The notes under the pieces were generated by a model. That model saw nothing but the letters and a program-made list of their open reading frames with translations. It made no database searches and was not told the origin of the DNA. The position numbers and the translations under genes were made by a program. From Erysipelotrichaceae bacterium (GTDB lineage Bacteria; Bacillota_I; Bacilli_A; Erysipelotrichales; Erysipelotrichaceae), in the NCBI GenBank assembly GCA_017512285.1, contig JAFWGU010000009.1, positions 1-64,000 of the forward strand: a stretch of 64,000 nucleotides of DNA, given 5' to 3'. Below are positions 9,646 to 52,413 of this stretch, piece after piece (position 1 is the first letter of the stretch; every line of letters begins with the position of its first letter).

Positions 9646-13798
<4,153 letters not shown>

Positions 13799-22973: not shown

Positions 22974-24366
22974 TGAAGCCCAGATAATTTACAGCGTTGT
23001 TGTATGAAATGTCTTCAACCATTTCCTTCAGAAGCTTTTCATCTGCCGGATATTCACCATTTTCAACTAATGTACCGATGAAGTCACACAGAATTCTTCT
23101 GAAGTATTCATGTCTGGTGTATGACAGGAAGCTTCTGGAGTCTGTCAGCATGCCTACGAAGTTGGCGAGCATGCCGTCATTAGCCAATGTCTGCATCTGT
23201 TCCTGCATGCCGATCTTATGGTCATTGAACCACCAGGCACTGCCATGCTGCATCTTGCCTCTGATGCCGTCACCCTGGAAGCAGTTCATTGTCGAAACGA
23301 TGGCTGCGTTGTCTGCAGGGTTCAGTGAGTAGATGATCGTCTTTGGCAGGTTGCCTTCACGGTTCAGGCTGTCCAGGAAGTCAGCCATTTCAGCAGAAGG
23401 AGCATAGTTGTTGATGGTATCATAACCTGTATCAGGTCCAAGCTTGTTGAACATGTCAGTGTTATTGTCACGCTTGCAGCCATAGTGCAGCTGCATTGCC
23501 CAGCCTAACTTATGATATACGGAAGCCAGGTGGCTCATGAAGGCTGTCTTGAACTTCAGTTCTTCTTCTCTGGTGACCTTCTCACCGGCAAGTCTCCTGG
23601 CAAAGATCCTTTCGATCTCTTCTGCGCTGGCCGGGTTGTACATGATGTATTCCAGAGCATGGTCGCTGGCGCGGCAGCCCATGGAAGCGAAGAATTCGAT
23701 TCTTTCATCGATGGCAGCGCACAGTTCAGCGAATGTATTGATCTTTCTTCCGGTTACGCCTTCAAGTCTGGCGATGTAATCCAGATAGTCTGCCTTTTCA
23801 ATGTTATTAGCCTTATCAGGTCTGAAACAAGGAACTACGACTGTCTTCAGGGTCTTGTCTTCCTTGATCAGCTGATGATAATGCAGATCATCACATGGAT
23901 CGTCTGTGGTACATACGATGTTTACCTTGGAATCTTCCAGGATCTTTCTGACCTTGAGAGTCTTCAGAACTTCATTGCATCTGTTGAAGATGTCTTCAGC
24001 GTTGTCCTCTGTGAGAGGTTCGTAGATATTGAAGTATCTCTGTAATTCCAGATGGGACCAGTGATACAGCGGATTGCCGATCAGATGGGACAGGGTCTTT
24101 GCCCAGGCCTTGAACTTTTCCAGATCACTGGCATCGCCGGTAATGTACTTTTCGTCGATGCCGTTGGCACGCATCTGTCTCCACTTGTAGTGGTCGCCGC
24201 CCAGCCATACTTCAGTAATGGTGTTAAACTGTCTGTTTTCATAGATTTCCTTCTGCGAAATGTGGCAGTGATAGTCAATGATCGGCATCTTGGCTGCGTA
24301 ATCATGATATAAGTGCTTGGCAGTTTCGTTTGATAAAAGGAAATCCTTTCCCATGAATTCTTTCAT
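22966..24366 (-). CDS. uxaC: Glucuronate/galacturonate isomerase
   Basis: 466 residues of the UxaC family (amidohydrolase fold). Seen are PIIDYHCHISQKEIYENR with the metal-binding histidines near the N-terminus, CTTDDPCDDLHYH (mid), and GMLTDSRSFLSYTRHEYFRRIL near the end. It converts D-galacturonate to D-tagaturonate and D-glucuronate to D-fructuronate. No UxuA/UxuB genes are in the window, so the galacturonate route is the one that continues here (UxaB, UxaA). It is preceded by the second kinase gene, 12 bases upstream. Confidence 0.95.
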   Translation of the reverse strand: MKEFMGKDFLLSNETAKHLYHDYAAKMPIIDYHCHISQKEIYENRQFNTITEVWLGGDHYKWRQMRANGIDEKYITGDASDLEKFKAWAKTLSHLIGNPLYHWSHLELQRYFNIYEPLTEDNAEDIFNRCNEVLKTLKVRKILEDSKVNIVCTTDDPCDDLHYHQLIKEDKTLKTVVVPCFRPDKANNIEKADYLDYIARLEGVTGRKINTFAELCAAIDERIEFFASMGCRASDHALEYIMYNPASAEEIERIFARRLAGEKVTREEELKFKTAFMSHLASVYHKLGWAMQLHYGCKRDNNTDMFNKLGPDTGYDTINNYAPSAEMADFLDSLNREGNLPKTIIYSLNPADNAAIVSTMNCFQGDGIRGKMQHGSAWWFNDHKIGMQEQMQTLANDGMLANFVGMLTDSRSFLSYTRHEYFRRILCDFIGTLVENGEYPADEKLLKEMVEDISYNNAVNYLGFND

Positions 24367-24378
24367 ATTTATTATCTC

Positions 24379-25398
24379 CTATCTTTGTACGGCTGCGTTG
24401 CCGTTTGAATTTATGAATTCCGTAACTTCTTCTTCGGATAAGGTGGAAGCATCACCGTATACCGTATGTTTCAGTACTGAGGTTGCCAGACCGAACTTCA
24501 GCGCATATTTCGGATGGTTGAAATCCTTTAACAGACCGTGAATGATGCCGCTTGAGAAGGCATCACCGCCGCCGATCCGGTCATAGATGCTGAATCTGAT
24601 CGGTCCTTCCTTGAAGTAGCTGCCGTTCCTGTTGATGCAGTAGCTGGATAATGAGTTATCCGTTGCGGTATGTACGATGCGGTCGGTGCCGAATACATAC
24701 TGAACATGCGTCCTTTCCATCAGCTTCTTGGCTACGTCAAGTCTCTTCTCTTCCATTGTTTCCAGCATTGGGTCTGCTTCAATTTCCAGCATCGTGTTGA
24801 TGTCGAAGAAGTTGGCAAACAGTACGTCAACATACTGGATGACCTTCTGGAAATGCGGCTTGGCTTCCTCAATGGTCCATAACTTTGAACGGTAGTTGAA
24901 GTCAAAGGATACCTTTACGCCATATTTTGCGCAGGCTTCCAGACATCTGTAGGCAGCAGCCCTGCACTTCTCGTGTATTGCCAGGGTAATGCCGGAAATG
25001 TGGAACCAGTCAGCGTCCCTGAATATTTCATCATAGTCAAGCTCATCAGCGTCTATTCTGGTGATGGCACTGTGTGCTCTGTTATAAAGCACTTTGCTTG
25101 GACGTCCGCCGAATCCTGTCTCAACGAAGTACATTCCCAGGTTGGATGATCCTCTCAGGATGTGTGATGTGCCTACGCTGTGTCTCTTCAGATGCATGAT
25201 GGCAGATTCACCAAGCTGATTGTCCGGTACTCTGGTAATGAAGTCGGTGCCATGTCCCAGGTGTGATAGTGAAACGAGAACGTTAGCCTCAGCTCCACCG
25301 TAGTTGGCTATGAAATTCTTAGCCTCACTGATAGTCGTATAATCAGGAGGAGTCAGTCTCAGCATGATTTCTCCAAATGCCACGATCTTATCCTTCAT
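24379..25398 (-). CDS. PfkB-family sugar kinase, KdgK-like paralogue 2
   Basis: 339 residues, same plan as the kinase at 20069: FGEIMLRLTPPDY, NYGGAEANVLVSLSHLG, DRIGGGDAFSSGIIHGLL. The two share length and motifs but differ over most positions, so this is an old duplication, not a recent one. Likely 2-keto-3-deoxygluconate kinase or a kinase for a related keto-deoxy acid. It overlaps the end of the upstream membrane-protein gene by 11 bases, indicating tight coupling with the importer genes. Confidence 0.8.
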   Translation of the reverse strand: MKDKIVAFGEIMLRLTPPDYTTISEAKNFIANYGGAEANVLVSLSHLGHGTDFITRVPDNQLGESAIMHLKRHSVGTSHILRGSSNLGMYFVETGFGGRPSKVLYNRAHSAITRIDADELDYDEIFRDADWFHISGITLAIHEKCRAAAYRCLEACAKYGVKVSFDFNYRSKLWTIEEAKPHFQKVIQYVDVLFANFFDINTMLEIEADPMLETMEEKRLDVAKKLMERTHVQYVFGTDRIVHTATDNSLSSYCINRNGSYFKEGPIRFSIYDRIGGGDAFSSGIIHGLLKDFNHPKYALKFGLATSVLKHTVYGDASTLSEEEVTEFINSNGNAAVQR

Positions 25399-25966
25399 TT
25401 GCTTTCCTCCCTAATGAATTCATTATTCTGTCTTTCAAAGTTATGAACAGCATGTCTATTACCGTATAAACGATGCCGAACACGATCGGTTCAACACCGA
25501 TTCCGATTATTCTGTATACCTGTATGGTAAGGAACAGGAGCAGAAATGCGTAGGCAATGTTGGCTATGAACGTCCAGTATTTCCCGGAGGGAAACATCAT
25601 GTACGGATAGAACTCCCTGTCCTCACCGCTGAAGAATCTCAATACGTTATTTGTCAGGATGTCAGTCAGTATGCCAAGTCCGACTCCAAGGACCAGCATC
25701 TGGTCAAGCCAGTTGGGTATGTAGGCTGCCAACCCCCAGTAAAAGAAAAAACAAGCAGCACCAGCAAACCAGAATTTTATGAACAGAGCCTTTACCCAAA
25801 CAGGTAATGAACCCAGTTTCGAACTCCTATACTTGTTAATTTCCTCATCAGAGACCTTTCTGGCTGTTCCCTTATGGGCCTTGGCCAGACGATCTGCTGC
25901 ATCAGTATTTAACTTATAGTAATCCTTTTCACTTTGTGTTACTGTCTTGTCTTTTTCTTTTGCCAT
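25388..25966 (-). CDS. Small four-helix membrane protein A of the importer operon
   Basis: 192 residues. About 55 hydrophilic residues (KDKTVTQSEKDYYKLN, then SDEEINKYRSSKLGSLP) precede roughly four transmembrane helices (FIKFWFAGAACFFFYWGLAA, LVLGVGLGILTDIL, IANIAYAFLLLFLTIQ, IVFGIVYTVIDMLFI) and a basic end. No family recognised. No good ribosome-binding site is visible and the gene follows membrane protein B by 14 bases, so translation may depend on coupling. Given its place it is probably an accessory part of the oligosaccharide importer; this is inference. Confidence 0.8.
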   Translation of the reverse strand: MAKEKDKTVTQSEKDYYKLNTDAADRLAKAHKGTARKVSDEEINKYRSSKLGSLPVWVKALFIKFWFAGAACFFFYWGLAAYIPNWLDQMLVLGVGLGILTDILTNNVLRFFSGEDREFYPYMMFPSGKYWTFIANIAYAFLLLFLTIQVYRIIGIGVEPIVFGIVYTVIDMLFITLKDRIMNSLGRKANEG

Positions 25967-25980
25967 GTTGTTATTTTTAA

Positions 25981-26529
25981 TTAACCTTCGTCCGTCAGTT
26001 CGATGCTTACATCCTTATTCTCTGTCAGAGCAACAGATGTATCGATCCTGTTGAGTAACTTGCCGAGAACCGGAATCAGAGCGATCAGAACTACTGTAAT
26101 GATTACCAGTATGATGTGAACAGTCAGCATTGACTGAGCCTTTGGAATGAACATTCTGGCAGATGTGATTTCAATGCTCTTCAGACCTTCCTGAATTCTC
26201 TTCAGATACATGAAGTCAGCTGCGATGATGATCACCTGTAACAGGTACAGCAGAATGACCATCGGCAATATCGGTTTCTGTCTCTTTGGATATGCGTTCA
26301 GGAAACATACAAATGCCAGAATTGAGAACAGCATGATTACGAATTCACACAGTCCCATGTATGGTCTGTTGATTACGGCAGTTGTATTTGAAACCTTGGT
26401 AAGGTTGAATGAGTATACGATGAACGCAATTGCCATCATGCACAACGGAATGTTATGCGGTCTCTTCTTTAGTGAAACAATAAATTTACGCTTGGTTTCG
26501 TTAAAACCCTTATTTCTTTTTTCAGCCAT
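25981..26529 (-). CDS. Small four-helix membrane protein B of the importer operon
   Basis: 182 residues. A basic N-terminus (MAEKRNKGFNETKRKF) precedes four predicted transmembrane helices (IPLCMMAIAFIVYSF, YMGLCEFVIMLFSILAFVCF, MVILLYLLQVIIIAADF, VHIILVIITVVLIALIPVL) and an acidic tail. I do not recognise the family. It sits directly after the first ATPase gene (12-base gap) and before membrane protein A, inside one operon. Confidence 0.8.
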   Translation of the reverse strand: MAEKRNKGFNETKRKFIVSLKKRPHNIPLCMMAIAFIVYSFNLTKVSNTTAVINRPYMGLCEFVIMLFSILAFVCFLNAYPKRQKPILPMVILLYLLQVIIIAADFMYLKRIQEGLKSIEITSARMFIPKAQSMLTVHIILVIITVVLIALIPVLGKLLNRIDTSVALTENKDVSIELTDEG

Positions 26530-26541
26530 GTATTGTTCCTC

Positions 26542-27606
26542 CTATAATATTGCTTCTGTTGTCTCAGCGTCGAACAGATGTACCTTTTCCTCATCAAAGG
26601 AAACCTTGACCTGATCGCCGATGTCGAATCTCTGCCAGTCTCTGAACTTGGCAACAGATGTCTTTCCGAACAGCTTGCCATGTGTCAGTGTGAAGTGACC
26701 GGTATTTTCATTCAGATTTACATCAAGAACGAAGTCGTTGCCCAGTCTGATGTCTTCAGGTCTGATGCCGATGACATATTCCTTCTTGTTGGTTTCCTTA
26801 ATGGCCTTTACGACTCTTTCCGGAAGATGAGTCTCAATGCCTTCAACATAGTACTTGCCATCCTCTGCCTTGAGGCTGAACAGGTTCATTGGAGGTAAAC
26901 CGATGAATGAAGCAACGAACAGATTCTTCGGGTGATCGTACAGCTCAAGAGGAGTACCGATCTGCTGAACATGTCCCATTGACATGCAGACGATTCTGTC
27001 TGCGAGGGTCAGAGCTTCAGTCTGGTCATGAGTTACATAGATCATGGTTGTTCCCAGTCTCTTGTGTAACAGCTTGATCTCTCTTCTGGTTGAACCTCTT
27101 AACTTGGCGTCAAGGTTTGATAACGGTTCATCAAACAGGAAGACCTTTGGATTTCTTACAATGGCACGACCCATCGCAACTCTCTGTCTCTGGCCGCCTG
27201 ATAACTGATTTGGCTTTCTGTTAAGTACCTGGGTAAGCCCGAGGATCTCAGCTGCAGCCATGACCTTTTCATGGATGACATACTTGTCTTCCTTGGCCAG
27301 CATCAGTGAGAATGCCATGTTTTCGTAAATTGTCATGTGACCGTATAACGCATAGTTCTGGAAAACCATTGCGATGTCTCTGTCCTTTGCCGGAAGAGTC
27401 GTGCAGTCCTTGCCGTCGATCAATAGCTTACCGGCAGAAATGTCTTCGAGACCGGCGACCATTCTCAGCGTTGTGGACTTGCCACATCCTGAAGGACCTA
27501 CGAATACGATGAATTCACCATCCTTGATATCAATATTGAAGTCATAGACAGCTTGAACATTATTGTCATAAATCTTATCTATATGCTGTAATGATAGACT
27601 TGCCAT
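26542..27606 (-). CDS. Sugar ABC transporter ATPase, UgpC/MsmK type (copy 1)
   Basis: 354 residues: Walker A GPSGCGKST (about residue 39), signature LSGGQRQRVAMGR, Walker B FLFDEPLSNLD, H-loop THDQTEA, and a C-terminal OB-fold regulatory region (IGIRPEDIRLGND). ATPases of this type energise CUT1 oligosaccharide importers and can serve several of them. The operon carries a second such ATPase at 33426-34505, which is unusual for one importer. Flanked on both sides by small membrane-protein genes. Confidence 0.92.
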   Translation of the reverse strand: MASLSLQHIDKIYDNNVQAVYDFNIDIKDGEFIVFVGPSGCGKSTTLRMVAGLEDISAGKLLIDGKDCTTLPAKDRDIAMVFQNYALYGHMTIYENMAFSLMLAKEDKYVIHEKVMAAAEILGLTQVLNRKPNQLSGGQRQRVAMGRAIVRNPKVFLFDEPLSNLDAKLRGSTRREIKLLHKRLGTTMIYVTHDQTEALTLADRIVCMSMGHVQQIGTPLELYDHPKNLFVASFIGLPPMNLFSLKAEDGKYYVEGIETHLPERVVKAIKETNKKEYVIGIRPEDIRLGNDFVLDVNLNENTGHFTLTHGKLFGKTSVAKFRDWQRFDIGDQVKVSFDEEKVHLFDAETTEAIL

Positions 27607-27621
27607 AATTTTACCTCTCCG

Positions 27622-28095
27622 TTACTTCTCTAATGATGCCAGGTGGTTCTGTAATGTCTTTGAGTTCTTCATGCTCATTAATCCGCCGAATACCATGCAG
27701 GCAGCTGAAACTACCAGATAAACTATGGATGAAATGAACTGAGCATTAGTCATGACCTGTACATTGTTACCGTCAACGACCGTTACTGCTCCATGAGCAC
27801 TCATCGGGTAAACGAATATTCTAATGATCTGAACTATACCAAGAGCAATCATCAGATATCCGAACTTTCCATGATAATTCTTTACTTCAATTGAGCACCA
27901 GAAACCAAACAGCATGAACAGCAGGTTGATTACTACTGAAGCTCCGATTGAATAATTGTAGAAGAATTCATTGTTTATTTTATATATCAAAACAAAGTAT
28001 AAAATGTCAAAAACAACTGCAAGTATTGCAAGATTAGATGGACCAGAGTCTTTAACATAGCGCATTCTGTCCAGCTTGATTCTCTCTTTATCCAT
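27622..28095 (-). CDS. Small four-helix membrane protein C of the importer operon
   Basis: 157 residues with about four transmembrane helices (ILAVVFDILYFVLIYKI, IGASVVINLLFMLFGFWC, YLMIALGIVQIIRIFVYP, ISSIVYLVVSAACMVFGGL) and a short extracytoplasmic loop after helix three (HGAVTVVDGNNVQVMTN). No recognised family. Its start overlaps the stop of membrane protein D by one base, so C and D are probably made as a pair. Confidence 0.8.
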   Translation of the reverse strand: MDKERIKLDRMRYVKDSGPSNLAILAVVFDILYFVLIYKINNEFFYNYSIGASVVINLLFMLFGFWCSIEVKNYHGKFGYLMIALGIVQIIRIFVYPMSAHGAVTVVDGNNVQVMTNAQFISSIVYLVVSAACMVFGGLMSMKNSKTLQNHLASLEK

Positions 28096-28658
28096 TATCT
28101 TACTTCCCCTTTCAATATTGCGTCTTCTTGTTTAACTAGTTTAGTTTTCCAATTTAGGTTGTATACTGCAGCTCCGGCGCCCACCAAAAGCAGTACTGCG
28201 ATCAGTACTCCTACCAGGAAATAACCGGTTGACTCGGTATACATGAAATTCATGGCATCAGCAACGGTCTTGTAGAATTCAAAGTCAACGGTATTGACGA
28301 ACTGAGCTCTGAATTTCAGGGCGTTGACTGCCAGGTACACTGCTGCACCAACAAAGGCACCTGCCTGAATATATGTACTAACTGTATTGCCAATGTAATA
28401 TTTTCTTCTGGTATTTGAAGCAAATATGAATGGCAGGCAGCTGATGATGATAAGTCCTATGGAAATCAGAACCATGTTATGGTTGTATTTCTGCATGTCA
28501 AAGAATATCTGTGAACCCGGTACACCGCCAAGTGCCTGAGTCTGATACAGACCGTAAAGATCTGTCATTATTCCCAGAGAATAAACAAATACTGCTCCTG
28601 ACAATATCATCAGAATGATGAATAAGACTTTCTGAAACTTCATTTGCGGTTTGAACAT
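28095..28658 (-). CDS. Small four-helix membrane protein D of the importer operon
   Basis: 187 residues with about four transmembrane helices (VLFIILMILSGAVFVYSLGI, MVLISIGLIIISCLPFIFA, YIQAGAFVGAAVYLAVNAL, YFLVGVLIAVLLLVGAGAA). It is the first gene after the binding-protein gene, from which a strong stem-loop separates it. The family is not recognised. Position and coupling with protein C suggest a membrane accessory of the importer. Confidence 0.8.
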   Translation of the reverse strand: MFKPQMKFQKVLFIILMILSGAVFVYSLGIMTDLYGLYQTQALGGVPGSQIFFDMQKYNHNMVLISIGLIIISCLPFIFASNTRRKYYIGNTVSTYIQAGAFVGAAVYLAVNALKFRAQFVNTVDFEFYKTVADAMNFMYTESTGYFLVGVLIAVLLLVGAGAAVYNLNWKTKLVKQEDAILKGEVR

Positions 28659-28729: not shown

Positions 28730-30859
28730 TTACTTATTGTTATTGTAGTAGTCGTTTAAGACTTTCCACTGTGCCTGCTTGATCAACAGGTAAGCCTGGC
28801 CTGACCAGTTATTCTTAACGAAGTCAGCATAACCCTGTGCAGTTGGCTCAGCACCGGCAATTGAACCATATCCGTTAACGATGATGTTATAGAATTCTGA
28901 TTCGCCGCCCTTTGATGTTGAGAATCTTGTGCTTAAGTCTGTGTAGCCGTTCAGAGTATTTGTCTGTTCAGCAGTTGTCGGGAATACTGTTGGAACCTGT
29001 GTGTACCACATGTTAGCTGTATTGACTGTCAGTAACGGATGCTTGATAACGCCCTTGGCGATACCAGCTGACAGGATTGCAGCACCCTTCTTACCGATTT
29101 CATGAGTCATCTGATATTCAAATGCCTGTGACTTTGGGAAGCCGTTAAGTGTTGAACCTAAATACTGTCTAGCATAGTTGGTGTAGTTACCACCGGTTAA
29201 CTTCTGGCATTCTGCGAATGTAGCGTCTGCAACTACTGGCATTTCTGTACCGTTGAAGTTGAATGTTTCATACTTCTTTGGAACGTCTGCCCATGTCTTT
29301 ACTTCTACTGAAGCATCCTTGACCTTGATGAATTCATCTGGTCCGTATGACATTGTGATCTGGCCCTGTACTGAGAATGCATAGTCGATTAAGGTCAGTG
29401 CTGCGTTCAGCTTGTTCTTGTCAGCAGCACAGCCGGCAACTGTCAGTGCCCATCCTTCAGTCTTAGCTGATCTCCATGATTCAGTGAATCTCATGAACTT
29501 GGCGCCGTCGCCGTCATCCCACTTGGCTACTGGAACCATGATTACTGTGTATTCTTCGCCAGCAGCGTTGTCCAGCTTGGTGTTGTTCATGATTGTCTGG
29601 GTCTGGTTGTAGTCGTATGACATTAAGCCAGCATCCTTTTCGAGGTAGTTACCAGAGTTAACTTCACCGGTTACGGCAACTAAGCCTTCTCTTACTAACT
29701 GATTCAGTCTTTCAACTGCGAGGTAAGCATCAGCTTCCTGTCTTGCATCATGTAACTGACCAGCCTTGTCGAAGTATAATGATTCCTGTCTTGACTCTAA
29801 GCCTCTTACGCCGAATAAGTGACCAGCAAATCTGATGAGGTCAACTTCTCTCTGCAGGTTAGAAGTTTCACGTGAATATAAGCCAGCGATTGGGTTGCCG
29901 TCATTGTCGTTCAATGAAGCAACAGCACATCTTAATAAGGCTACCATTTCGTCAACATCCCATGCTGCATCGTAACCTAAGAACAGGTCGCTTCTCTTGT
30001 CATAGACACCAGCGTATGTAGCATCGATGTAGTCCTGGAACATCTTTACAGCCTGGTCACCTGTTAATGGCTGAGCATTCATCTGAGCAACGATGTTGTT
30101 AGCGCCGCCAACCTTCTTGGTGATTGTCTGAGTACCAGTGCCGTCAGCTGTTAATGATTCGATTGTGTAATCTTCTGTAACATATGGCTGATATACATAG
30201 TCAGCTAAAGGTCTGTTAGCACCTGTGTATCCGTCTGTATCAAGCAGCTTCCTGACGAAGTCAGCTCTTACTAATGGCATTCTTTCGATATCATCATTAC
30301 CGTCGAAGTATGGTGAGAAGTAGATAGCGCCATTTGATGTGTCACCAGTGATTGATAATCTTGCGATCTGGTTCTGAGCCAGGTAAGCCTTGAAGTTAGG
30401 CATTACATCAAGATATTCTGCTAAGTTAACTAAGGTTCCCTTTGCACCGGCAGCGTTTAATAATGCTGTTGTACCGGTAACGATGTCGACCTGATCCAGC
30501 TGGTTTTCCCAAACTGGGAATTCCTTGGCAGCTTGCTGTCCTGAATACTTATCGATGAAAGTGATTCCTAACTTTTCTGATAAGTGCTGCCAGGTTGGCT
30601 TGAAGTCGCCTGTCTGGTATGTCTTGCCATCGGCAAGAGTGATTCCTGACTTGGTAACGTCAGCGTTGGTATAGCTGATACCTGTCTTGTCACTGTTGTA
30701 ACCAGCAGCTACTCTGAGTTCTGTTCCCTTTTCATAGTCTAATGAAGCAGGAGTGTCTCCACCTGATGGCTGATCACCGCCCTGTCCGCCGCCACCGCAG
30801 CCGACGAGTACGAGCAGTAATGCCATCACCAACGTGATAAATTTTAGTGATTTTTTCAT
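28730..30859 (-). CDS. Extracellular solute-binding lipoprotein for oligosaccharides
   Basis: 709 residues. The signal MKKSLKFITLVMALLLVLVGC ends in a lipobox (LVGC), followed by a Gly-rich spacer (GGGGQGGDQPSGG). The mature protein is a large family-1-type binding protein like LplA/YtcQ, which serve CUT1 importers of pectin-derived oligosaccharides. It is lipid-anchored outside the membrane and delivers ligand to the two permeases encoded just upstream. The exact ligand is unknown; the surrounding enzymes point to (methyl)oligogalacturonides or rhamnogalacturonides. Confidence 0.92.
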   Translation of the reverse strand: MKKSLKFITLVMALLLVLVGCGGGGQGGDQPSGGDTPASLDYEKGTELRVAAGYNSDKTGISYTNADVTKSGITLADGKTYQTGDFKPTWQHLSEKLGITFIDKYSGQQAAKEFPVWENQLDQVDIVTGTTALLNAAGAKGTLVNLAEYLDVMPNFKAYLAQNQIARLSITGDTSNGAIYFSPYFDGNDDIERMPLVRADFVRKLLDTDGYTGANRPLADYVYQPYVTEDYTIESLTADGTGTQTITKKVGGANNIVAQMNAQPLTGDQAVKMFQDYIDATYAGVYDKRSDLFLGYDAAWDVDEMVALLRCAVASLNDNDGNPIAGLYSRETSNLQREVDLIRFAGHLFGVRGLESRQESLYFDKAGQLHDARQEADAYLAVERLNQLVREGLVAVTGEVNSGNYLEKDAGLMSYDYNQTQTIMNNTKLDNAAGEEYTVIMVPVAKWDDGDGAKFMRFTESWRSAKTEGWALTVAGCAADKNKLNAALTLIDYAFSVQGQITMSYGPDEFIKVKDASVEVKTWADVPKKYETFNFNGTEMPVVADATFAECQKLTGGNYTNYARQYLGSTLNGFPKSQAFEYQMTHEIGKKGAAILSAGIAKGVIKHPLLTVNTANMWYTQVPTVFPTTAEQTNTLNGYTDLSTRFSTSKGGESEFYNIIVNGYGSIAGAEPTAQGYADFVKNNWSGQAYLLIKQAQWKVLNDYYNNNK

Positions 30860-31807: not shown

Positions 31808-32851
31808 TTAGTATAATGATACATCGCTGGCTTTTCTGGCGATGGAGTTAGCTCCGATAACCAGGATCATGCCGGTAATGTTATTGATCATTTCAGCTGC
31901 TGAAGCAATGGCCTGCGAGCCGCCTTCCAGACCCAGTCTGTAGGCGAAGGTTGAAACAACGTCAGCGGTAACGAACGTGTTGGCCTTGTATAACAGCATT
32001 ACCTTTTCGTAGCCTATTGATAACAGTGAACCGATTCTGTTGATCAGCATGATTACGACCGTTGACAGGATGCTTGGAATTACCACGTATCTCATCTGTG
32101 CCATCTTGCCGGCACCGTCGATCTGTGCTGCCTCATAGGAAGTCGGTGAGATCGCTATGATGGCAGCGAAGTAAACGATAGAGTCATAACCAGCGCCCTC
32201 CCAGATACCTGAGATCTGATAAATGGTTCTGAAGAAGTTCGGATTATTCAGCAGACCGGCATTGGCAGCCTCCTGAGTAACGATTCCCAGCTTGGCCAGT
32301 GCACTTGCTACGATACCTGTGCTTGAAACCAGGTCACCCTGCTTCAGTAACATCGTTACCAGAGTCGTCATGACAACGGTTGACATGAATTTTGGCAAGT
32401 ATGTCAGTACCTGGTATACGCTTCTCAGAATGTTGGACTTGATTTCGTTGAAGAACAGGGCCAGTATGATCGGCATTGGGAAGCCGAACAGTAAGCCGTA
32501 GAAACTCAGCAGGAAAGTATTTCTGAATGCTCTCCAGAAAGCGGTTGTCTGCGTTGTCGTACCAAACATCAGAGCCTTGAAGTTAGCGAACCCGCACCAG
32601 TTCATTTCGGCAACCTTCTTGCCTACTTCAGTGATCTTGAAACAGCCCAGTAATTCATACATTGGCAGGTATCTCCATAACAGGAATACCAGAATCATCG
32701 GGACAAGCATCAGGTACAGTCTCCAGTCCTTGACTATCAGCTGCCAGTTCAGCTTCCAGCGGTTCTTTTCGACGTCATCCCTGACCTTCTGTTCAGGATC
32801 GAGTTCATAACATTTCAGCTCTTCGTTATAAACTAGATATTCATCATTCAT
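31808..32851 (-). CDS. CUT1 ABC permease, LplB/YteP-like
   Basis: About 347 residues. A hydrophilic N-terminus of about 45 residues precedes six transmembrane segments; the ATPase-contact loop is YEAAQIDGAGKMAQMRYVVIP. The family resemblance is to LplB/YteP permeases of the Bacillus pectin/rhamnogalacturonan importers. The start at 32851 has GGAGG eight bases before it and overlaps the upstream membrane-protein gene by eight bases. Confidence 0.92.
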   Translation of the reverse strand: MNDEYLVYNEELKCYELDPEQKVRDDVEKNRWKLNWQLIVKDWRLYLMLVPMILVFLLWRYLPMYELLGCFKITEVGKKVAEMNWCGFANFKALMFGTTTQTTAFWRAFRNTFLLSFYGLLFGFPMPIILALFFNEIKSNILRSVYQVLTYLPKFMSTVVMTTLVTMLLKQGDLVSSTGIVASALAKLGIVTQEAANAGLLNNPNFFRTIYQISGIWEGAGYDSIVYFAAIIAISPTSYEAAQIDGAGKMAQMRYVVIPSILSTVVIMLINRIGSLLSIGYEKVMLLYKANTFVTADVVSTFAYRLGLEGGSQAIASAAEMINNITGMILVIGANSIARKASDVSLY

Positions 32852-33422
32852 CTTGCCATCCTCCATCTTGTTTTTCTTGAGAATTAATTTGTATTAGATA
32901 TTGTTTCTGGTCCTGGAACAGGCCATCGGCCTTCCTTACTGCTATTATCACCAGCAGACCAAACACCAGTGACAGCATGTCGGACATCAGAAACTGCAGG
33001 ATAACCCCAGCCCCTGCACCCGTAATGATCATCGAGGCGATTCCTCTGGATAATTCCATGGTCACAAACCCCACGACCAGATACGCGGCGGAATTGAAGA
33101 AGTTACTCCTTATCCTGTCCTTGCCGACCTTATATACATAAATCAGCGTTGCCATGAATCCAAGGTTGCCGATTATGTAGATCAGATACTGATTGATGCT
33201 GCCGCCCTGATACAGTACGAACAGAATCGCATACACTACTGCGTGCAGTAATGCATATCTGTCCCAGCGCATAATGACTATCGCCAATAGCGGTAACATT
33301 ATAGATATTGAATACGGTTCATCAAACCAGACTGTCGCCGCCTTGATGACCAGGTACTCGAACAGGGCATACATGCCCAGAAAGATCATCAGATCAAGCG
33401 TACGGTACTGTTTGAAGCTCAT
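32844..33422 (-). CDS. Small membrane protein E, resembling an ECF S component
   Basis: 192 residues, five to six hydrophobic segments (LMIFLGMYALFEYLVI, ISIMLPLLAIVIMRW, LLHAVVYAILFVLY, YIIGNLGFMATLIYVY, LMSDMLSLVFGLLVIIAV) and a short polar C-terminus. The overall pattern, with RWDRYALLHAVVYA and QYLIYIIGNLG, recalls substrate-binding S components of ECF transporters, but no ECF T component or EcfA pair is in the window. It lies between the second ATPase gene (four-base gap) and the first permease gene (overlap). Role unproven. Confidence 0.75.
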   Translation of the reverse strand: MSFKQYRTLDLMIFLGMYALFEYLVIKAATVWFDEPYSISIMLPLLAIVIMRWDRYALLHAVVYAILFVLYQGGSINQYLIYIIGNLGFMATLIYVYKVGKDRIRSNFFNSAAYLVVGFVTMELSRGIASMIITGAGAGVILQFLMSDMLSLVFGLLVIIAVRKADGLFQDQKQYLIQINSQEKQDGGWQDE

Positions 33423-33425
33423 ATG

Positions 33426-34505
33426 CTATTTCCTGGTAAATACCTTCTCGGTTTCCCTGTCGAACAGATACACCTTGTCATATGGCAGATAGAAGTCAAA
33501 TTCCTCGTCCATTGCCGGTGCATCATGCGGGTCTACCTTCAGGATGACTGTATCGCCGTCCATCTCGATGTAGATGTTGGTTGAGTCACCCAGCATTTCC
33601 GTCAGGGTTGCCAGAGCGTGAATCTTATAAGCGTTTTCAATTGGCTTCATTGAGACGTTCTCAGGTCTGAATCCAAAATAGATCTCGCCGTCTCTCAGCT
33701 GATATCTTGTCTTCGTGCCGTCAAGGACATTGTGGTTATTGTCAAATGAGATCTCCTTGCCGCTTAACTTGCCCGTGATGAAGTTCATTGGCGGTTCACC
33801 GATGAATCCGGCAACGAACAGGTTACATGGATCGAAGTAGAGCTCTTCAGGTGTGCCGATCTGCTGAACATAACCGTCCTTCATGACTACGATACGGTCA
33901 GCCATGGTCATGGCCTCAGTCTGGTCATGGGTTACGTAGATGGTCGTAGCATGAGTTGATCTGTGGATCTGAGTGATCTCAGAACGCATGGTAACTCTCT
34001 GCTTGGCATCCAGGTTGGACAGCGGCTCGTCCATCAGGAATATGTCTACCTGTCTGATGATGGCTCTGCCTACGGCTACTCTCTGTCTCTGACCACCTGA
34101 CAGGGCCTTTGGCTTTCTGTCAAGATAATCGGTCAGGCCAAGAATGGCAGCGATCCTCTGAACCTTTTCCTCAATGACTTCCTCATCGACACCTTCCAGG
34201 GTCAGACCGAAAGCCAGGTTATCGTATACGGTCAGGTGCGGATATAACGCATATGACTGGAATACCATCGCAATTCCTCTTTCAACCGGTGACTTTTCAT
34301 TGGCTCTTTCACCATTGATCAGGAAATCACCCTTTGAAATCTCTTCCAGACCTGCAATCATTCGCAGCGTGGTTGACTTGCCACATCCGGATGGGCCGAC
34401 AAAAACTATAAACTCACCATCCTTGATCTCCAGGTTGAAATTATGAACAGCGTGGTATCCGTTAGGATAGATCTTGTTTATATCTTTCAATACTAAATTT
34501 GACAT
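33426..34505 (-). CDS. Sugar ABC transporter ATPase, UgpC/MsmK type (copy 2)
   Basis: About 359 residues: Walker A GPSGCGKST, signature LSGGQRQRVAVGR, Walker B FLMDEPLSNLD, H-loop THDQTEA, and a C-terminal OB-fold region (FGFRPENVSM). First gene of the importer operon. The ATG at 34505 is preferred: GGAAG stands six bases before it, while a GTG at 34526 has none. Complete, so not a decayed duplicate of the copy at 26542. Confidence 0.92.
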   Translation of the reverse strand: MSNLVLKDINKIYPNGYHAVHNFNLEIKDGEFIVFVGPSGCGKSTTLRMIAGLEEISKGDFLINGERANEKSPVERGIAMVFQSYALYPHLTVYDNLAFGLTLEGVDEEVIEEKVQRIAAILGLTDYLDRKPKALSGGQRQRVAVGRAIIRQVDIFLMDEPLSNLDAKQRVTMRSEITQIHRSTHATTIYVTHDQTEAMTMADRIVVMKDGYVQQIGTPEELYFDPCNLFVAGFIGEPPMNFITGKLSGKEISFDNNHNVLDGTKTRYQLRDGEIYFGFRPENVSMKPIENAYKIHALATLTEMLGDSTNIYIEMDGDTVILKVDPHDAPAMDEEFDFYLPYDKVYLFDRETEKVFTRK

Positions 34506-34535
34506 AGCTCTTCCTTTCCATTTCACTAAGATTAA

Positions 34536-34617: not shown

Positions 34618-36108
34618 TTAAAAATGTAATTCCTCACCTTCAATGAAAACATTCTCCGCTTCCTTTTCTCTGACGTTGTAGAAATAGAAGCCTCCGTTAT
34701 TGACCTTTTCACACTGATAGATCATTGCGGGCTTTACGAATTCCTTGAAGTCATGATCGAAGGTAACTTCAATGTCCTTCAACGTAATCTTATCGATCGG
34801 GCTTTCCGGCAGACCGTAGAAGTAGCCGGCACAGCCTCTGGTATTAAGACACTTGATGTTCTTGAAGAAGAATTCACCGACATGTGGGGTCATCTCAGTG
34901 ACCTCACGCGGCTCCTTGCTGTCGGCATAGTCATCATAGCCGTCATGATCGAGGTAGTAATACATGTTGATTACGAACCCGGCCAGTACCCCATCCATCA
35001 GGATATTGTCAAAGCTGACATTTTCAATGATGGCCTTGTTGCCTCTGCCACGCTTGGTCTTTATTCTCAGGCCTCTGTCGGTATTCTTGAAGATGCACTT
35101 GCTGACAGTGACGTTCTTGATGCCGCAGCTGGATTCGGAACCGAATACCACGGCGCCATGTCCGTCACCCATGAAGCAGTTGCGGATATCCAGATTCTCC
35201 GTCGGACGGTAGAATCTGTCGGCCATGATTTTCTTGCCCGACTTGATAGCTATGCAGTCATCACCTACGAAGATCTGGGTTCCAAGTAGTTTCATGTCTT
35301 TGCAGCTTTCCGGATCGAATCCATCGGTGTTCGGACTGGTTGGAACTGACCTCAATGTCAGGTTGATGAAATCAAGCTTGTCGGAATAGAACGGATGGAG
35401 GTTCCAGCATGGGGAGTTGATGATGTTCAATCCAACCAATGAAACGTTCTTGCATCTGTTGACGAAGAAGTTGTTAGGCCTCCAGGCCCCTCTTCTGGTC
35501 CGGTGATCAAACCACCAGTCTGCCTTGTCGGCATTGCCGTTGATGGTTCCCTCGCCTACCAGCATGATGTCATGGCTGTCGAAGCTGGAGATCAGTGACA
35601 TGAATGAATCATTTGGCTCACCTTCCCAGCTGGCGTTTACGGCCTTTCCGTCTTCGGTATAGGCTGGAATTATCGGATAGTCCCAGCGGTTATTGCTGCC
35701 GATGATCTCGGCTCCCTTCTTGAGGTAGATGAAGGTATTTGAGCGGATGTTCAGTGGTGCGCAATAGTACTTGCCTTCCGGGAATACTATCAGGTCATGG
35801 TCACTTTCATCCAGAAGCTTCTGGATCTTTTCATTGACCAGGACGCTGCCGTCATTTTCAATGCCATGGTCCAGCACATTTACAATTCTGCTGACCTTCA
35901 GAGTCCTGACTCTGACAGTCTCATTGCCGGCCTTTATCTCATAGACCGTGTACGGCTGAAGATCAAACACCGTGAATACGTTGCGGTCTTCCTTCTTGTA
36001 GAACTGTCCGTTGACAAAGACGTCAAAGGCTTCAGGAGCGTAGAACGGAGAATCATTCTCCAGTTCAAAGCTTACGGATACCGGTGATACATGAATTACG
36101 TTAATCAT
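34618..36108 (-). CDS. GH28 polygalacturonase (cytosolic)
   Basis: 496 residues. An N-terminal beta domain of about 95 residues (fibronectin-III-like) precedes the GH28 right-handed beta-helix. Catalytic motifs are NTDGFD, VGDDCIAIKSG, GDGHGAVVFGSE and RIKTKRG, all intact. There is no signal peptide, so it should cleave galacturonate from oligogalacturonides or rhamnogalacturonides inside the cell. Last gene of the uxaB-led unit; it overlaps the esterase gene by eight bases. Confidence 0.93.
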   Translation of the reverse strand: MINVIHVSPVSVSFELENDSPFYAPEAFDVFVNGQFYKKEDRNVFTVFDLQPYTVYEIKAGNETVRVRTLKVSRIVNVLDHGIENDGSVLVNEKIQKLLDESDHDLIVFPEGKYYCAPLNIRSNTFIYLKKGAEIIGSNNRWDYPIIPAYTEDGKAVNASWEGEPNDSFMSLISSFDSHDIMLVGEGTINGNADKADWWFDHRTRRGAWRPNNFFVNRCKNVSLVGLNIINSPCWNLHPFYSDKLDFINLTLRSVPTSPNTDGFDPESCKDMKLLGTQIFVGDDCIAIKSGKKIMADRFYRPTENLDIRNCFMGDGHGAVVFGSESSCGIKNVTVSKCIFKNTDRGLRIKTKRGRGNKAIIENVSFDNILMDGVLAGFVINMYYYLDHDGYDDYADSKEPREVTEMTPHVGEFFFKNIKCLNTRGCAGYFYGLPESPIDKITLKDIEVTFDHDFKEFVKPAMIYQCEKVNNGGFYFYNVREKEAENVFIEGEELHF

Positions 36109-36778
36109 TTAGCAGTCCCTCAAATCTCTTGTTGTTTCTGATCTGCTTCAGGAAGATGCCGGCGATCTTTTCGGCACCCTTCATTCGCAGATGTGTATTA
36201 TCATTCATTCCCTCAGGATAGTTGGGATATATTCCGGCGTCGAAGTTCATGTAGAGCTCCCTGGCGTTGTCAAATCCCATTTCCTGCAGCATTTCCGCGG
36301 TAAGACCCGTCATGTCAATGACATCGGTGCCGGTATCCTTGCCGACTCTGATCATCGCTTCCCTGTATCCTGCATGGCAGCTCCAGTCGATCGTTCCGTC
36401 ATCATGGAACTTTCTTCTGAAGACAGGTGTCAGTAACATCACATAGGCACCCTTCTTCCGGCAGCTTTCTACCATGTAGATCAGGTTGTCCCGGTATTCA
36501 AATTCCGGACGGGTAAATCTTTCAGGATCGTAATCATGTTCATCGTTATGACCGAATTCCATGATGACGATACTGTTTTCATCAACATGCTTAAGGGCGT
36601 TTTCGAAGTTTCCCAGTTCGATGAATGACTTGGTACTTCTGCCGTTTTTGGCAAAGTTCAGCAGTTCGACGTCATCCCTGAACTTTCCCTTCAGAGCCTG
36701 AGGCCAGCCGACCTGTGGCCAGGTGGTCTCATCGTTGAACTGCATGGTTGAATCGCCCATGAATATGATCTTCATCAA
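36101..36778 (-). CDS. SGNH-family (rhamno)galacturonan acetylesterase, CE12-like
   Basis: 225 residues with the SGNH blocks GDSTMQ (serine), NFAKNGRSTKSF, EFGHNDE and DNTHLRMKG (Asp-x-x-His). This arrangement matches CE12 rhamnogalacturonan acetylesterases such as YesT. It probably removes acetyl groups from imported pectic oligomers so that GH28 and GH105 can act. No signal peptide. Overlaps neighbours on both sides. Confidence 0.85.
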   Translation of the reverse strand: MMKIIFMGDSTMQFNDETTWPQVGWPQALKGKFRDDVELLNFAKNGRSTKSFIELGNFENALKHVDENSIVIMEFGHNDEHDYDPERFTRPEFEYRDNLIYMVESCRKKGAYVMLLTPVFRRKFHDDGTIDWSCHAGYREAMIRVGKDTGTDVIDMTGLTAEMLQEMGFDNARELYMNFDAGIYPNYPEGMNDNTHLRMKGAEKIAGIFLKQIRNNKRFEGLLND

Positions 36779-37809
36779 TATATTTCACTGTAGGCCATGA
36801 TGAATGGCGCTACGCCCTTTACTTCGTTAACTGAGATATTCTCAGACATGTAGTATTCAAAAGAACCGTCTCTCTTGTAGTTGTCCAGACCGCCTACCTG
36901 ACAGATGTTGTACAGGTTGCGTCCGTCAAACTGCTTGGTAATGACAGTATCAAAGATGGTGTGACCCAGACTGTCATCCTCGATCATGCCAAGCTTTTTG
37001 CCCTTGAAGATGGCATAGGCCATCATTACGGAACCTGAGGTTTCCAGATAGTTGTGCTCTCTTCTGATGTCAACCAGCTGGTACAGCATGCCGTCTTCCA
37101 GATATGGCTTCAGGCCTTCAATTTCCTTGACCAGGATGTCCCTGCAGATGTCCAGACCGAGTTCCTCATAGATGTCGACCATCGCCATCATGACCCAGCC
37201 GCAGGCTCTTGCCCAGACGTTTGGAGACTTGCCGGTCTTCTTGTCAGCCCACTGCATGACCTTAGCCTCGTCATAGGCATGTACGAACAGCTTTCTGTCC
37301 TCATCATACAGTCTGGCTACCAGGGTATGAAGCTGCCTGTCTACATCCCTGACGGTTTCCTCAACGCCGAACTGCTTTGCGTACATGGCAACGTAGAGAA
37401 CGCCCATGTAGATGCCGTCCATCCAGACCTGGTTAGGATAGATCTGCTTGTGCCAGAATGATCCTTCCTTCGTACGGGGATGATTCTGCATCTGACCGTA
37501 CATCTCGTCCAGAGCCTTTTTAAATCTTTCCTCCGGCGTGTCACGGTACAGTTTCATCAAGCCAATGCCCGGACAGACGTCGTCAATTGAATACTTGGTC
37601 GGTTCATAGTTCTTAATGACGCCGTCTTCAGAAATCATGCCGTCATAGAACTTATAGACGAAATCGTAGTACTTCTTTTCACCGGTTGCCTTGTACATGT
37701 CATAGATGGCAGTCATCAGGATGCCGTCTTCATAGCACCAGACACCTTTCTTGTAAGGTGTGAAATACTCCATGTATTTATCTATATACTTATTGATCAC
37801 TTCATTCAT
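36775..37809 (-). CDS. GH105 unsaturated rhamnogalacturonyl hydrolase, YteR/YesR-like
   Basis: About 344 residues of an alpha6/alpha6-barrel enzyme. VWMDGIYMGVLYVA holds the catalytic aspartate, and WARACGWVMMAMVDIYE and LETSGSVMMAYAI are family blocks. GH105 enzymes release unsaturated galacturonate from lyase-made oligomers; the released sugar becomes DKI, the substrate of KduI. The ATG at 37809 has AAGGAG eight bases before it; the earlier TTG does not fit. No signal peptide. Confidence 0.92.
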   Translation of the reverse strand: MNEVINKYIDKYMEYFTPYKKGVWCYEDGILMTAIYDMYKATGEKKYYDFVYKFYDGMISEDGVIKNYEPTKYSIDDVCPGIGLMKLYRDTPEERFKKALDEMYGQMQNHPRTKEGSFWHKQIYPNQVWMDGIYMGVLYVAMYAKQFGVEETVRDVDRQLHTLVARLYDEDRKLFVHAYDEAKVMQWADKKTGKSPNVWARACGWVMMAMVDIYEELGLDICRDILVKEIEGLKPYLEDGMLYQLVDIRREHNYLETSGSVMMAYAIFKGKKLGMIEDDSLGHTIFDTVITKQFDGRNLYNICQVGGLDNYKRDGSFEYYMSENISVNEVKGVAPFIMAYSEIY

Positions 37810-38632
37810 TTTCAAAACTCCTTATATACTCAATTGAAGGCTGTATGTCCTCTCCCGTAACTCCTTCCAGAATCAGCACTGCTTCCGGACATTCTCTGAT
37901 GATCCTAGGAATGTACTGCTTCCAGTTCATGATTCCCTTACCTATTCCGCACTGAACCAGTTTTCCGTCAACGACATTGAAGTCCTTGATGTGGAACACC
38001 CTGATCATGTCACCGAACAGTTCCAGACTTCTGTCGAAGATCTCATCAGCCTGCCTGTAGTTATCAATGTTCAGATAATTGAACACGTCAATGGTAACAT
38101 CGGTGATAAACGCCGCGTCGGTCAGTTTTTTCAGCTGATCAGGAGTGTATATGGTGTGGGCATATGCTCCTTCAATTATGGGTCTGGCACCGAATTCCTT
38201 GCCGTATGCCCTTAAGGTTGCCGTCGTGCTTTCAACCCTGTGGAAGGCTTCCTCGGTATGGTTATAGGGATTGTACGTCCACTTGTCGCCATTGGCGCTG
38301 CCAGTTTCCGATCCAACCAATTCACAGTCGAATACCTTGGCAGTTTCCATGCACTGTTCAAAGTAAACCATGCCGTCAAGTCTCTTCCAGTCATCAGGAT
38401 GGATCATGTTGAAGTAGGCTCCGATCATGGCTACCCTGATGTCATTGTTCTTCAGTTCCTCAGCCAGCTTCAGAAGGAAATGCGGTTCCATTTCAAAGTT
38501 TCTGAACGCTTTCTTATATACCAGCTGAAGATAGTCAAGATCGAACTGTTTATACCCCTTTATGAATTCCTCAATGCTTTCAAAAGGTGCACCGGGTATA
38601 TCGTGCCCTCTTATGCCTAATTTGATTCTCAT
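37802..38632 (-). CDS. Sugar phosphate isomerase/epimerase-like TIM barrel
   Basis: About 276 residues of the xylose-isomerase-like TIM-barrel family: LVGSETGS, PIIEGAYAHTIY, TIDVFNYLN, RVFHIKDFNVVDG and LILEGVTGED provide the acidic and histidine metal ligands expected at strand ends. The substrate is unknown. In this operon a hexuronate or keto-uronate epimerisation is plausible, or processing of a pectin side sugar. ATG at 38632 preferred over the GTG two codons earlier. Confidence 0.75.
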   Translation of the reverse strand: MRIKLGIRGHDIPGAPFESIEEFIKGYKQFDLDYLQLVYKKAFRNFEMEPHFLLKLAEELKNNDIRVAMIGAYFNMIHPDDWKRLDGMVYFEQCMETAKVFDCELVGSETGSANGDKWTYNPYNHTEEAFHRVESTTATLRAYGKEFGARPIIEGAYAHTIYTPDQLKKLTDAAFITDVTIDVFNYLNIDNYRQADEIFDRSLELFGDMIRVFHIKDFNVVDGKLVQCGIGKGIMNWKQYIPRIIRECPEAVLILEGVTGEDIQPSIEYIRSFENE

Positions 38633-39646: not shown

Positions 39647-40477
39647 CTATCTGATATCCTTCATGGCTACGCCGTCCATGTCATCAAAGTCCTGATTCTC
39701 ACCGCACATGCCCCAGATGAACGTATAGTTTCTGGTAGCTGAAGCGCAGTGAACTGACCATGACGGTGAAATTACGGCTTCTTCATTTCTCATGACGATG
39801 TGTCTGGTTTCCGTCGGTTCACCCATTACGTGGAATACGACGTCATCCTCACCTAATTCGAAGTACAGATAGACTTCCATTCTTCTGTCATGGGTATGGC
39901 ATGGCATGGTATTCCATACGCTGCCTTCAGCCAGTGTGGTCATGCCCATTACCAGCTGGCAGGATTCAACCTGGCCAGGCAGAATGTACTTTCTGATCGT
40001 TCTGTGGTTGCATGTTGCCAGAGAACCCAGTTCCTGGAATACGCAGTCCTCAGGATGGATCAGAACGGTTGGATATTCCTTATGTGCCGGAACGCTGTTG
40101 AAGTAGAACTTTGCCGGCTTTTCGCAGTCATCGGAAGCCAGAACGATCTTCTTGGAGCCTCTTCCGATGTACAGGCCATCCTTGTAGTTCATCGGATAGA
40201 CCTTGCCGTCAACGGTAACGGTTCCTGCTCCGCCGATGTTGATGATGCCCATTTCCCTTCTTTCCAGGAAGTATTCGGCACGCAGTTCATCTCCGGCCTT
40301 GATCTCAAGCTGTTCCCTGACAGGCTTGGCACCGCCGACGATGATGCGGTCAATGTGAGAATAGATGTATTTGATATCGTCTGCGTTGAACAGATCCTGA
40401 ATCAGGAATTCATCTCTCAGACGGGTCGTATCGTAAGTCTTGACGTCCTTTGGACCACTTGCTGTTCTTAATTCCAT
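39647..40477 (-). CDS. kduI: 4-deoxy-L-threo-5-hexosulose-uronate ketol-isomerase
   Basis: 276 residues, the standard length of KduI. Cupin-type motif blocks are NTMPCHTHDRRMEVYLYF (zinc-binding His and Glu) and SWSVHCASATRNYTFIWGM. It converts DKI, the open form of unsaturated galacturonate, to DKII, which KduD at 19253 reduces to KDG. KduI and KduD lie in different transcription units here. Ten-base gap to uxaA. Confidence 0.95.
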   Translation of the reverse strand: MELRTASGPKDVKTYDTTRLRDEFLIQDLFNADDIKYIYSHIDRIIVGGAKPVREQLEIKAGDELRAEYFLERREMGIINIGGAGTVTVDGKVYPMNYKDGLYIGRGSKKIVLASDDCEKPAKFYFNSVPAHKEYPTVLIHPEDCVFQELGSLATCNHRTIRKYILPGQVESCQLVMGMTTLAEGSVWNTMPCHTHDRRMEVYLYFELGEDDVVFHVMGEPTETRHIVMRNEEAVISPSWSVHCASATRNYTFIWGMCGENQDFDDMDGVAMKDIR

Positions 40478-51730: not shown

Positions 51731-51766
51731 CAAAATAAAACAGTACCTGATCACTAATCAGCTACT
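51731..51766 (-). terminator. Terminator of the cre-controlled ABC operon
   Basis: On the minus strand AGTAGCTGAT and ATCAGGTACT pair with one mismatch around five bases, followed by GTTTTATTTTGG. It overlaps the stop of the DUF624 gene. Confidence 0.6.
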
Positions 51767-52412
51767 GCTTTTTTCTTCTTTCTCTCTGGTATTCGGCGTT
51801 GCCCCGTTTGAACTTGTATTTCTTCAGCATCCGGGGAATTATCTGCCAGCTGGCATAGGCAATTACACCCGGCAGCACCAGTATTAATCCCGGAAATACC
51901 AGGACACAGAGCAGCGGAATGCCGATGTTTATCACCAAGAGTGCCAGTGTTTCCAGAAGGCAGGTAAATGCAATGTCCAGCGCCTTCCTGAAGGCTCCCC
52001 ATGGGCTCTCTGCCATGTTCTGAGAAATGACCACGAATACCATCAGCATTTCAAATACAAGTACGGCCATCAGAACGAATATGCCTGTCTGCCCCAGAAT
52101 GTCTGCGGTGCTGTCCCCGCCCTCATAATACAGGTAATCAAGGATCAGTACGGCAAAGGCCAGGGCATGGACCAGCCACACCACCGTTGAGATCTTAAAG
52201 TATTTTCTGAAGGAATCGAGAAAGACTCTTAACGGCTTTTCCTCCTCATACACCACGTACTGGCTCATCGCATCATGCAGAGCCGTCAGACTTGCCCCGA
52301 TGGTCACTACCGGCACGCAGAACAGCAGGCTGAAAAAACCAAGCAGGACGGTGTTGGTTAACCGTCCTGCCAATCTTTCCAAAAATCCCTCAAACTTATC
52401 CCGGTTATCCAT
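51762..52412 (-). CDS. DUF624/YesL-family membrane protein
   Basis: About 216 residues with five to six hydrophobic segments. LLGFFSLLFCVPVVTIGASLTALHDAM is the DUF624 hallmark. YesL-like proteins accompany carbohydrate ABC importers in Bacillota; their molecular role is not established. The ATG at 52412 fits the family start (MDNRDKFEGF); a TTG at 52430 is the alternative. Last gene of the ABC operon; it overlaps or abuts the end of the ATPase gene. Confidence 0.8.
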   Translation of the reverse strand: MDNRDKFEGFLERLAGRLTNTVLLGFFSLLFCVPVVTIGASLTALHDAMSQYVVYEEEKPLRVFLDSFRKYFKISTVVWLVHALAFAVLILDYLYYEGGDSTADILGQTGIFVLMAVLVFEMLMVFVVISQNMAESPWGAFRKALDIAFTCLLETLALLVINIGIPLLCVLVFPGLILVLPGVIAYASWQIIPRMLKKYKFKRGNAEYQRERRKKQ

Positions 52413-52413
52413 A

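Follow-up and report, generated by a model that had tools for sequence, protein, structure and literature searches.

S components are the vitamin-capturing parts of ECF transporters. Many CUT1 importers are accompanied by a small membrane protein of a different kind, DUF624/YesL (PF04854). Docking of the S component ThiT depends on an AxxxA motif that binds EcfT, and mutation of either alanine leaves ThiT unable to bind the ECF module, as described in passages of PMC11109136; in FolT, the same motif lies on the surface that meets EcfT (a passage of PMC4820897). The S-component fold has otherwise been reported in MreD and in 5TMR sensor kinases, where it serves as scaffold or receptor instead of in transport and carries mostly bulky hydrophobic residues in place of AxxxA (excerpted text of PMC11109136). 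Among CUT1 systems, the Bacillus subtilis importer YtcQ-YtcP-YteP with MsmX (polygalacturonan/rhamnogalacturonan) comprises an ATPase, two permeases and a binding protein only, as far as its row in PMC11466899 goes. None of the titles and abstracts listed in a literature search describes a CUT1 importer that contains an S-component homologue, a result that holds for these listings alone.

Here we analysed a 64,000-nt stretch of an Erysipelotrichaceae genome (hereafter the window), in which a sequence-only reading had pointed to an S-component-like protein, E, inside a CUT1 operon. Like the B. subtilis system in PMC11466899, the cassette containing E has two permeases, an MsmX-type ATPase and a pectin context, but it adds five small membrane proteins as regular neighbours to the components given in that row. 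Our results make it rather probable that E is a ThiT-type S-component homologue that was recruited as a subunit of a CUT1 importer for pectin-derived oligouronides.

Gene E and the importer cassette

The ORF for protein E was confirmed at 32844-33422 on the minus strand, with an ATG start and 192 codons for a ThiT-related S-component homologue that probably has six helices, both termini inside and a cytoplasmic C-terminal helix. Homologues at the same position in several genera and families indicate that E is a real gene rather than a chance ORF. On the same strand it is followed by two CUT1 permease genes, P1 (31808-32866, UgpA/MalF-like) and P2 (30893-31798, MalG/UgpE-like), whose products match BPD_transp_1 of Pfam at 35.3 and 48.8 bits, respectively (cut-off 26.4). 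Then come, again all on the minus strand, SBP709 (28730-30859), a presumed solute-binding lipoprotein of 709 aa with a lipobox-like N terminus (LVGCGGG); two small membrane proteins of families without assignment, M187 (28095-28658) and M157 (27622-28095); the UgpC/MalK-type ATPase2 (26542-27606); and the small membrane proteins M182 (25981-26529), which diverges fast, and M192 (25388-25966), which closes the cassette. ATPase2 reached 455.6 bits against NF008653 (cut-off 432), and its C-terminal domains TOBE_2 and OB_MalK were also above cut-off (30.7 bits each). A second UgpC-type ATPase gene, ATPase1 (33426-34526, minus strand; 444.9 bits, cut-off 432), lies directly upstream of E, which starts 3 nt past its end. 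The overlap of the E ORF with that of P1 measures 23 nt; with Met6 as the P1 start, in front of which GGAGG stands at a distance of 8 nt, it shrinks to 8 nt.

E is present in 19 of the 272 genomes of the window's own family, the window's genome included, and an order-level search added none (19 of 315). Wider searches gave a match in 18 of 395 genomes with a first profile, one of them spurious, and in 30 of 392 with a second profile, four of them not cassette members; one of these four is a ThiT and the other three are unrelated. The surroundings of all E matches except those last three were examined, and the cassette was found in eight families of the class. Counts for the E family refer to 59 of 61 loci, since two, a ThiT outside any cassette (L185) and the locus L089, were left out.

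Both permeases were recognised at all loci but two, which are contig ends (57 of 59). SBP709 itself has no Pfam match, though its relatives, usually directly after P2, were recognised by profile at 54 of the 59 loci, as were those of M187 at 52, M157 at 50, M192 at 46 and M182 at 22. With M182 left aside, the eight remaining cassette genes stand in order at 40 of 59 loci; most of the other 19 are truncated, either where the contig stops or where the examined stretch does. At three of these 19, a single ORF encodes both M187 and M157 (L168, L174 and L177). The SBP gene follows M192 in L170 and L172 and was not seen in L088, and M192 was not recognised in L180. E borders on P1 or overlaps it at 57 of 58 measurable loci, and the two ORFs overlap at 48 of the 58 when the longest ORFs are taken. 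At the single exception, L178, an extra large SBP gene stands between E and P1 and makes the sole long gap (3,030 nt). An ATPase gene immediately precedes E, on its strand and at no more than 400 nt, at only 11 of the 59 loci, so ATPase1 is no constant part of the cassette. The arrangement seen earlier, E between an ATPase and a permease gene, thus exists in the window and is general on its permease side, whereas on the ATPase side it is not, and the supposed conserved pairing of E with UgpC does not extend beyond this minority of loci. The constant partners of E are P1 and the rest of the nine-gene cassette rather than the upstream UgpC.

The reverse search, with M157 as query, covered 346 genomes and gave 48 matches, spread over 37 of them. 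Of these places, 37 were already known from E; six of the 11 new ones contain E, and the remaining five lie on contigs that end before the permease genes. E is thus present at 43 of the 48, the five exceptions being contig ends, in a search that is only partly independent, since E loci supplied the sequences for its profile and most of the places were already known. Profile matches confirmed that M187 and M157 form a single polypeptide at four loci (L168, L174, L177 and L223) and that M157 is fused to an ATPase at L228; these fusions suggest that the proteins belong to one complex, of which synteny as such is no proof. The L228 product (10067-12004) is a 645-aa protein with M157 at residues 6-123, a UgpC-type ATPase at 163-517 and a second, weaker match to the ATPase C-terminal region at 528-636. 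By eye, M157 of three further loci (L082, L163 and L164; 374-452 aa in total) carries a long charged N-terminal extension that is probably a coiled coil, and a different N-terminal extension is present in L175, L176 and L179.

Relationship of E to ThiT

When the 59 cassette E proteins were compared with 24 ThiT proteins (PF09515) by hhalign, the two profiles matched at 96.2% (score 64) over 163 columns, nearly the full length of both. Local shuffling of the columns gave at most 43.0% in 100 trials (the next values were 29.3% and 7.4%), reversed profiles at most 1.9% in three comparisons, and six decoy families, namely P1, P2 and those of the four other small membrane proteins of the cassette, at most 13.7%. 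Ten random-half subsets of the sequences gave 90.4-96.2%, two of them over only ~100 columns. With the profile restricted to the window's own family (19 sequences), the match fell to 43.8%, no better than the best shuffle. The ThiT set was drawn from 30 loci, approximately the best-scoring third of the PF09515 matches listed; seven were dropped because no ORF below 300 aa covered the match, and the ThiT of L185 was added. Against 35 PF12822 S components, for which two of 37 loci were dropped for the same reason and which include the genome's own ThiT and are thus not ThiT-free, E gave 23.7%.

Single sequences carried less signal. No single E protein reached an S-component model of Pfam or NCBIfam, with only scattered weak matches, and none of the 28 members of one E set (A3) matched PF09515 or PF12822 at E 0.1. 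PDB sequence searches with E returned nothing or chance-level names (Ananain, an adenylate cyclase, EMC4), and a scan of viral contigs revealed no relatives. When the E profile was used to rank 2,004 ORFs from the examined loci, 18 matches were listed besides the cassette E proteins, with L185, L129 and L089 left out. Of these, 14 came from PF09515 loci, one was a PF12822 protein, and three were false positives that the search of 392 genomes had also returned. Because ThiT loci had been taken on purpose, this ranking demonstrates specificity among these ORFs and not in a random sample. In the search of 392 genomes, the ThiT outside any cassette (L185; Thia_YuaJ, 120 bits) was found at E 3.1e-7 per genome, with unrelated proteins not far behind (MFS at 2.9e-6 and 6.0e-4, cation efflux at 2.8e-4). 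Four candidate relatives, the 424-aa protein of L089, the MFS proteins of L130 and L132 and the cation efflux protein of L131, were rejected as chance-level membrane matches. E was likewise rejected as a DUF624 protein, which it resembles in being a small membrane protein of a CUT1 operon: it has no PF04854 match, and its profile gave 4.3% over 7 columns against 28 DUF624 proteins (28 of 30 loci used). The comparison with MreD (PF04093, 5 sequences from five of five loci) gave 0.7% and has little power, as ThiT (10.9%) and PF12822 (0.2%), reported to share the fold of MreD, also went undetected by it.

The predicted structure agrees with the profiles at a lower level of support. The AlphaFold2 model of E, made from two sequences, has a pLDDT of 65.0 and a pTM of 0.59, the other four models scoring 50-60, and the six helices were read from this model and from the charge pattern. 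With VIA-align, the first seven rows were seven different S-component entries spanning approximately residues 1-170 of E: 9kym_D (Z 9.1, rmsd 4.8, 161 aligned), 4huq_S (8.9), the ThiT chain 4tkr_A (8.9), 5edl (8.5), 3p5n (8.3), 4dve (8.3) and 5x3x_M (7.6). We take the aligned chains of 9kym and 4huq to be the S subunits. Designed proteins followed at Z 7.3 and 7.1, and then a value of 5.7. Helical bundles are safe only from approximately Z 13, so this result by itself is suggestive. Foldseek with the E model gave no match at E ≤0.001; its first PDB row was BioY (4dve; E 0.71, probability 0.72, TM 0.40), with TM values of 0.46-0.47 for ThiT and 0.30-0.32 for CbiM, and a viral fold library gave no significant match. 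For a size-matched control we used M187, whose poorer model (pLDDT 56.8), too poor to name its own fold, aligned 17 chains with 12 entries listed, none of them an S component. As to the other small membrane proteins, PDB profile searches returned nothing for M157 and M192, and the matches of M187 were limited to a designed protein (3.8e-6) and a flagellar ring protein, with weaker rows below them. In Pfam, the families of M157 and M192 had only scattered weak matches, and M187 and M182 were scanned against Pfam and NCBIfam as single window proteins. Taken together, the profiles and, more weakly, the model support the S-component-like fold that had been guessed for E, with moderate certainty; the comparison with S components did not turn up a fold unlike theirs.

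Residues kept and lost in E

Alignment of the two families revealed a common framework. The acid at the start of TM1 is D10 in all E proteins and E11 in 83% of ThiT, and a second acid within TM1 is E22 in E (E 74%, D 20%) and D23 in ThiT (D 50%, E 37%). The arginine after TM2 is R52 in 100% of E and R53 in 91% of ThiT. Glycines of the following turn are weaker in E than in ThiT (57% versus 100% at position 54 and 72% versus 95% at position 57), and the E protein of the window carries D54 and A57 at these places. The serine of an SIS stretch is common to both families, and W53 is present in 100% of E.

Other features that S components use are lost in E. Alanine at both positions of AxxxA occurs in 2 of 59 E proteins versus 14 of 24 ThiT, and alanine, glycine or serine at both in 3 of 59 versus 23 of 24; these values came out unchanged in a realignment, which does not count as independent confirmation. 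Position 16 of E instead carries bulky hydrophobics (I 35%, V 25%, F 11%), which recalls the MreD and 5TMR proteins of PMC11109136 in the excerpted text, whereas E is distinct from these in standing in an ABC importer cassette and in having no kinase domain or output domain after TM6. Four residues that are invariant in ThiT, D86, G135, Y156 and N157 (100% each), are not conserved in E, and H131 (83% in ThiT) is replaced, by arginine in 40%. Tyrosine at Y87 is kept in 54% of E and serine at S153 in 28%, so that among these seven positions E shares the commonest residue with ThiT only at Y87 and, weakly, at S153. These ThiT residues presumably form the thiamine-binding pocket.

E also has a longer cytoplasmic tail, with a median of 27 aa after TM6 (range 18-87) versus 9 aa in ThiT, and the tail contains recurrent residues (D171 in 40, Y175 in 38 and L176 in 46 of 59). 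The mean number of lysines and arginines is 2.1 at the N terminus, 1.5 in L2, 4.0 in L4 and 3.2 at the C terminus, versus 0.2, 0.7 and 0.4 in the loops L1, L3 and L5. This distribution fits an N-in/C-in topology, although acids are also found at the C terminus (2.6 on average). The cytoplasmic half of E is the more conserved one (0.427 inside versus 0.346 outside, p 1.4e-4) and holds 20 of the top 25 positions. In ThiT the pattern is reversed (0.474 versus 0.566, p 1.8e-4), with 6 of the top 25 on the inside. Because the two halves were assigned manually, not much weight should be put on these p values. The pattern in E suits a protein that holds partners at its cytoplasmic face better than one that takes up a solute from the outside.

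Possible roles of E

The reading of E as a recruited importer subunit is supported by its homology to ThiT, the loss of AxxxA and of most ThiT-invariant residues, the shift of conservation to the cytoplasmic half and the constant cassette; all but the first of these, and the longer tail, also set it apart from ThiT. From these observations we infer a physical complex, a place of E beside P1, a structural or gating role and an oligouronide substrate. In such a complex, E would sit in the membrane next to P1 and contact its partners through the cytoplasmic face, where the conserved residues lie: at the beginning of TM1, in the R-W turn that links TM2 to TM3, and in the C-terminal helix. Together with the four other small membrane proteins of the cassette, it would stabilise or gate the importer, and it would neither dock on EcfT nor bind thiamine. 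The most likely role of E is thus that of an importer subunit with a repurposed S-component fold, in a putative complex.

A bolder extension, which we regard as tentative, is that the cassette represents a new class of ABC importer, a CUT1 system with two permeases, an S-component homologue and four small membrane subunits. It would be a natural hybrid of type I and ECF (type III) importers, in which E could even topple to load or gate the permease, with the MalK-type ATPase instead of an ECF module supplying the energy. Fixation of a family in a sugar-importer cassette would add to the uses of the S-component fold and would link two importer types that are held to be mechanistically separate. 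The cassette also singles out five uncharacterised membrane proteins as a set that can be tested as importer subunits in pectin-using bacteria.

It was proposed earlier that E, if it binds a ligand, could hand it to the CUT1 machinery or sense it. A small ligand bound on the outside, such as a uronate monomer, an oligouronide end or a cofactor, would be in keeping with the homology of E to S components and with the receptor role reported for this fold in 5TMR sensor kinases (passages of PMC11109136), and the 19 close relatives keep W32, F33 and S40 on the outer side invariant. However, most of the ThiT-invariant residues are not conserved across the 59 sequences, the outer half is the less conserved one, and at 192 aa E has no output domain, so we now consider ligand binding unlikely.

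We give a lower probability, a slim one, to E being an assembly chaperone, coupled to P1 by translation, that assists insertion or folding of the permease and is not a permanent subunit. The frequent overlap of the two ORFs would suit such a role, as would the fast divergence of E (mean distance 0.76 versus 0.48 for P1), whereas conservation at the cytoplasmic face fits a permanent subunit just as well. Slightly less credit goes to the view that E is an unrelated six-helix accessory membrane protein whose match to ThiT is an accident of hydrophobic patterns. The low model confidence, the lack of a significant Foldseek E-value or of a single-sequence family match, the 43.8% of the window-family profile and the weak spurious matches to MFS and cation efflux proteins are what this view would predict. 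Against it stand the collinear profile match, far above every shuffle, the TM1 acids, turn arginine and glycines and SIS serine shared with ThiT, and the seven S components that head the structural matches, of which the control, with its poorer model, lists none.

ECF modules can be shared, and E might in principle be served by one encoded elsewhere. The window's contig has no EcfT in a search of the genome, as had been noted for the surroundings of E, and three EcfT matches lie on three other contigs. Ten PF12822 matches were found in the genome at E ≤1, six of them over cut-off, and a separate ThiT is encoded on yet another contig; these genes, E being none of them, suggest that ordinary ECF transport takes place elsewhere. 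EcfT is thus encoded in the genome, but E is without the motif for docking on it. That E is an ordinary S component, placed in the operon for regulatory convenience, is highly improbable despite these EcfT and PF12822 genes, because AxxxA is all but absent from a family in which E adjoins the permease at nearly every measurable locus (two non-cassette matches dropped), the loss of either alanine stops ThiT from binding the module (a passage of PMC11109136), and the genome has a ThiT of its own.

The substrate of the importer is most likely a pectin-derived oligouronide, as inferred from the pectin and uronate genes around the cassette. These genes, all on the minus strand, encode a GH28 family enzyme (34618-36108), a Glyco_hydro_88 enzyme of the GH88/GH105 type (36775-37815), a KduI/IolB family isomerase (39647-40477) and the uronate isomerase UxaC (22966-24366), the last two acting in uronate catabolism. 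GDSL, altronate-dehydratase-type, PfkB and KDPG-aldolase/pectinesterase genes are also present. The latter is an unusual fusion, a 617-aa ORF (21120-22973, minus strand) that consists of a pectinesterase-like part, a KDPG aldolase and approximately 120 further residues. The window also contains a second CUT1-like cluster (53533-55329, minus strand) with a 598-aa permease that has two BPD_transp_1 stretches and possibly represents two fused permeases, and a DUF624 gene (51762-52430, minus strand) lies beside the ATPase of this cluster.
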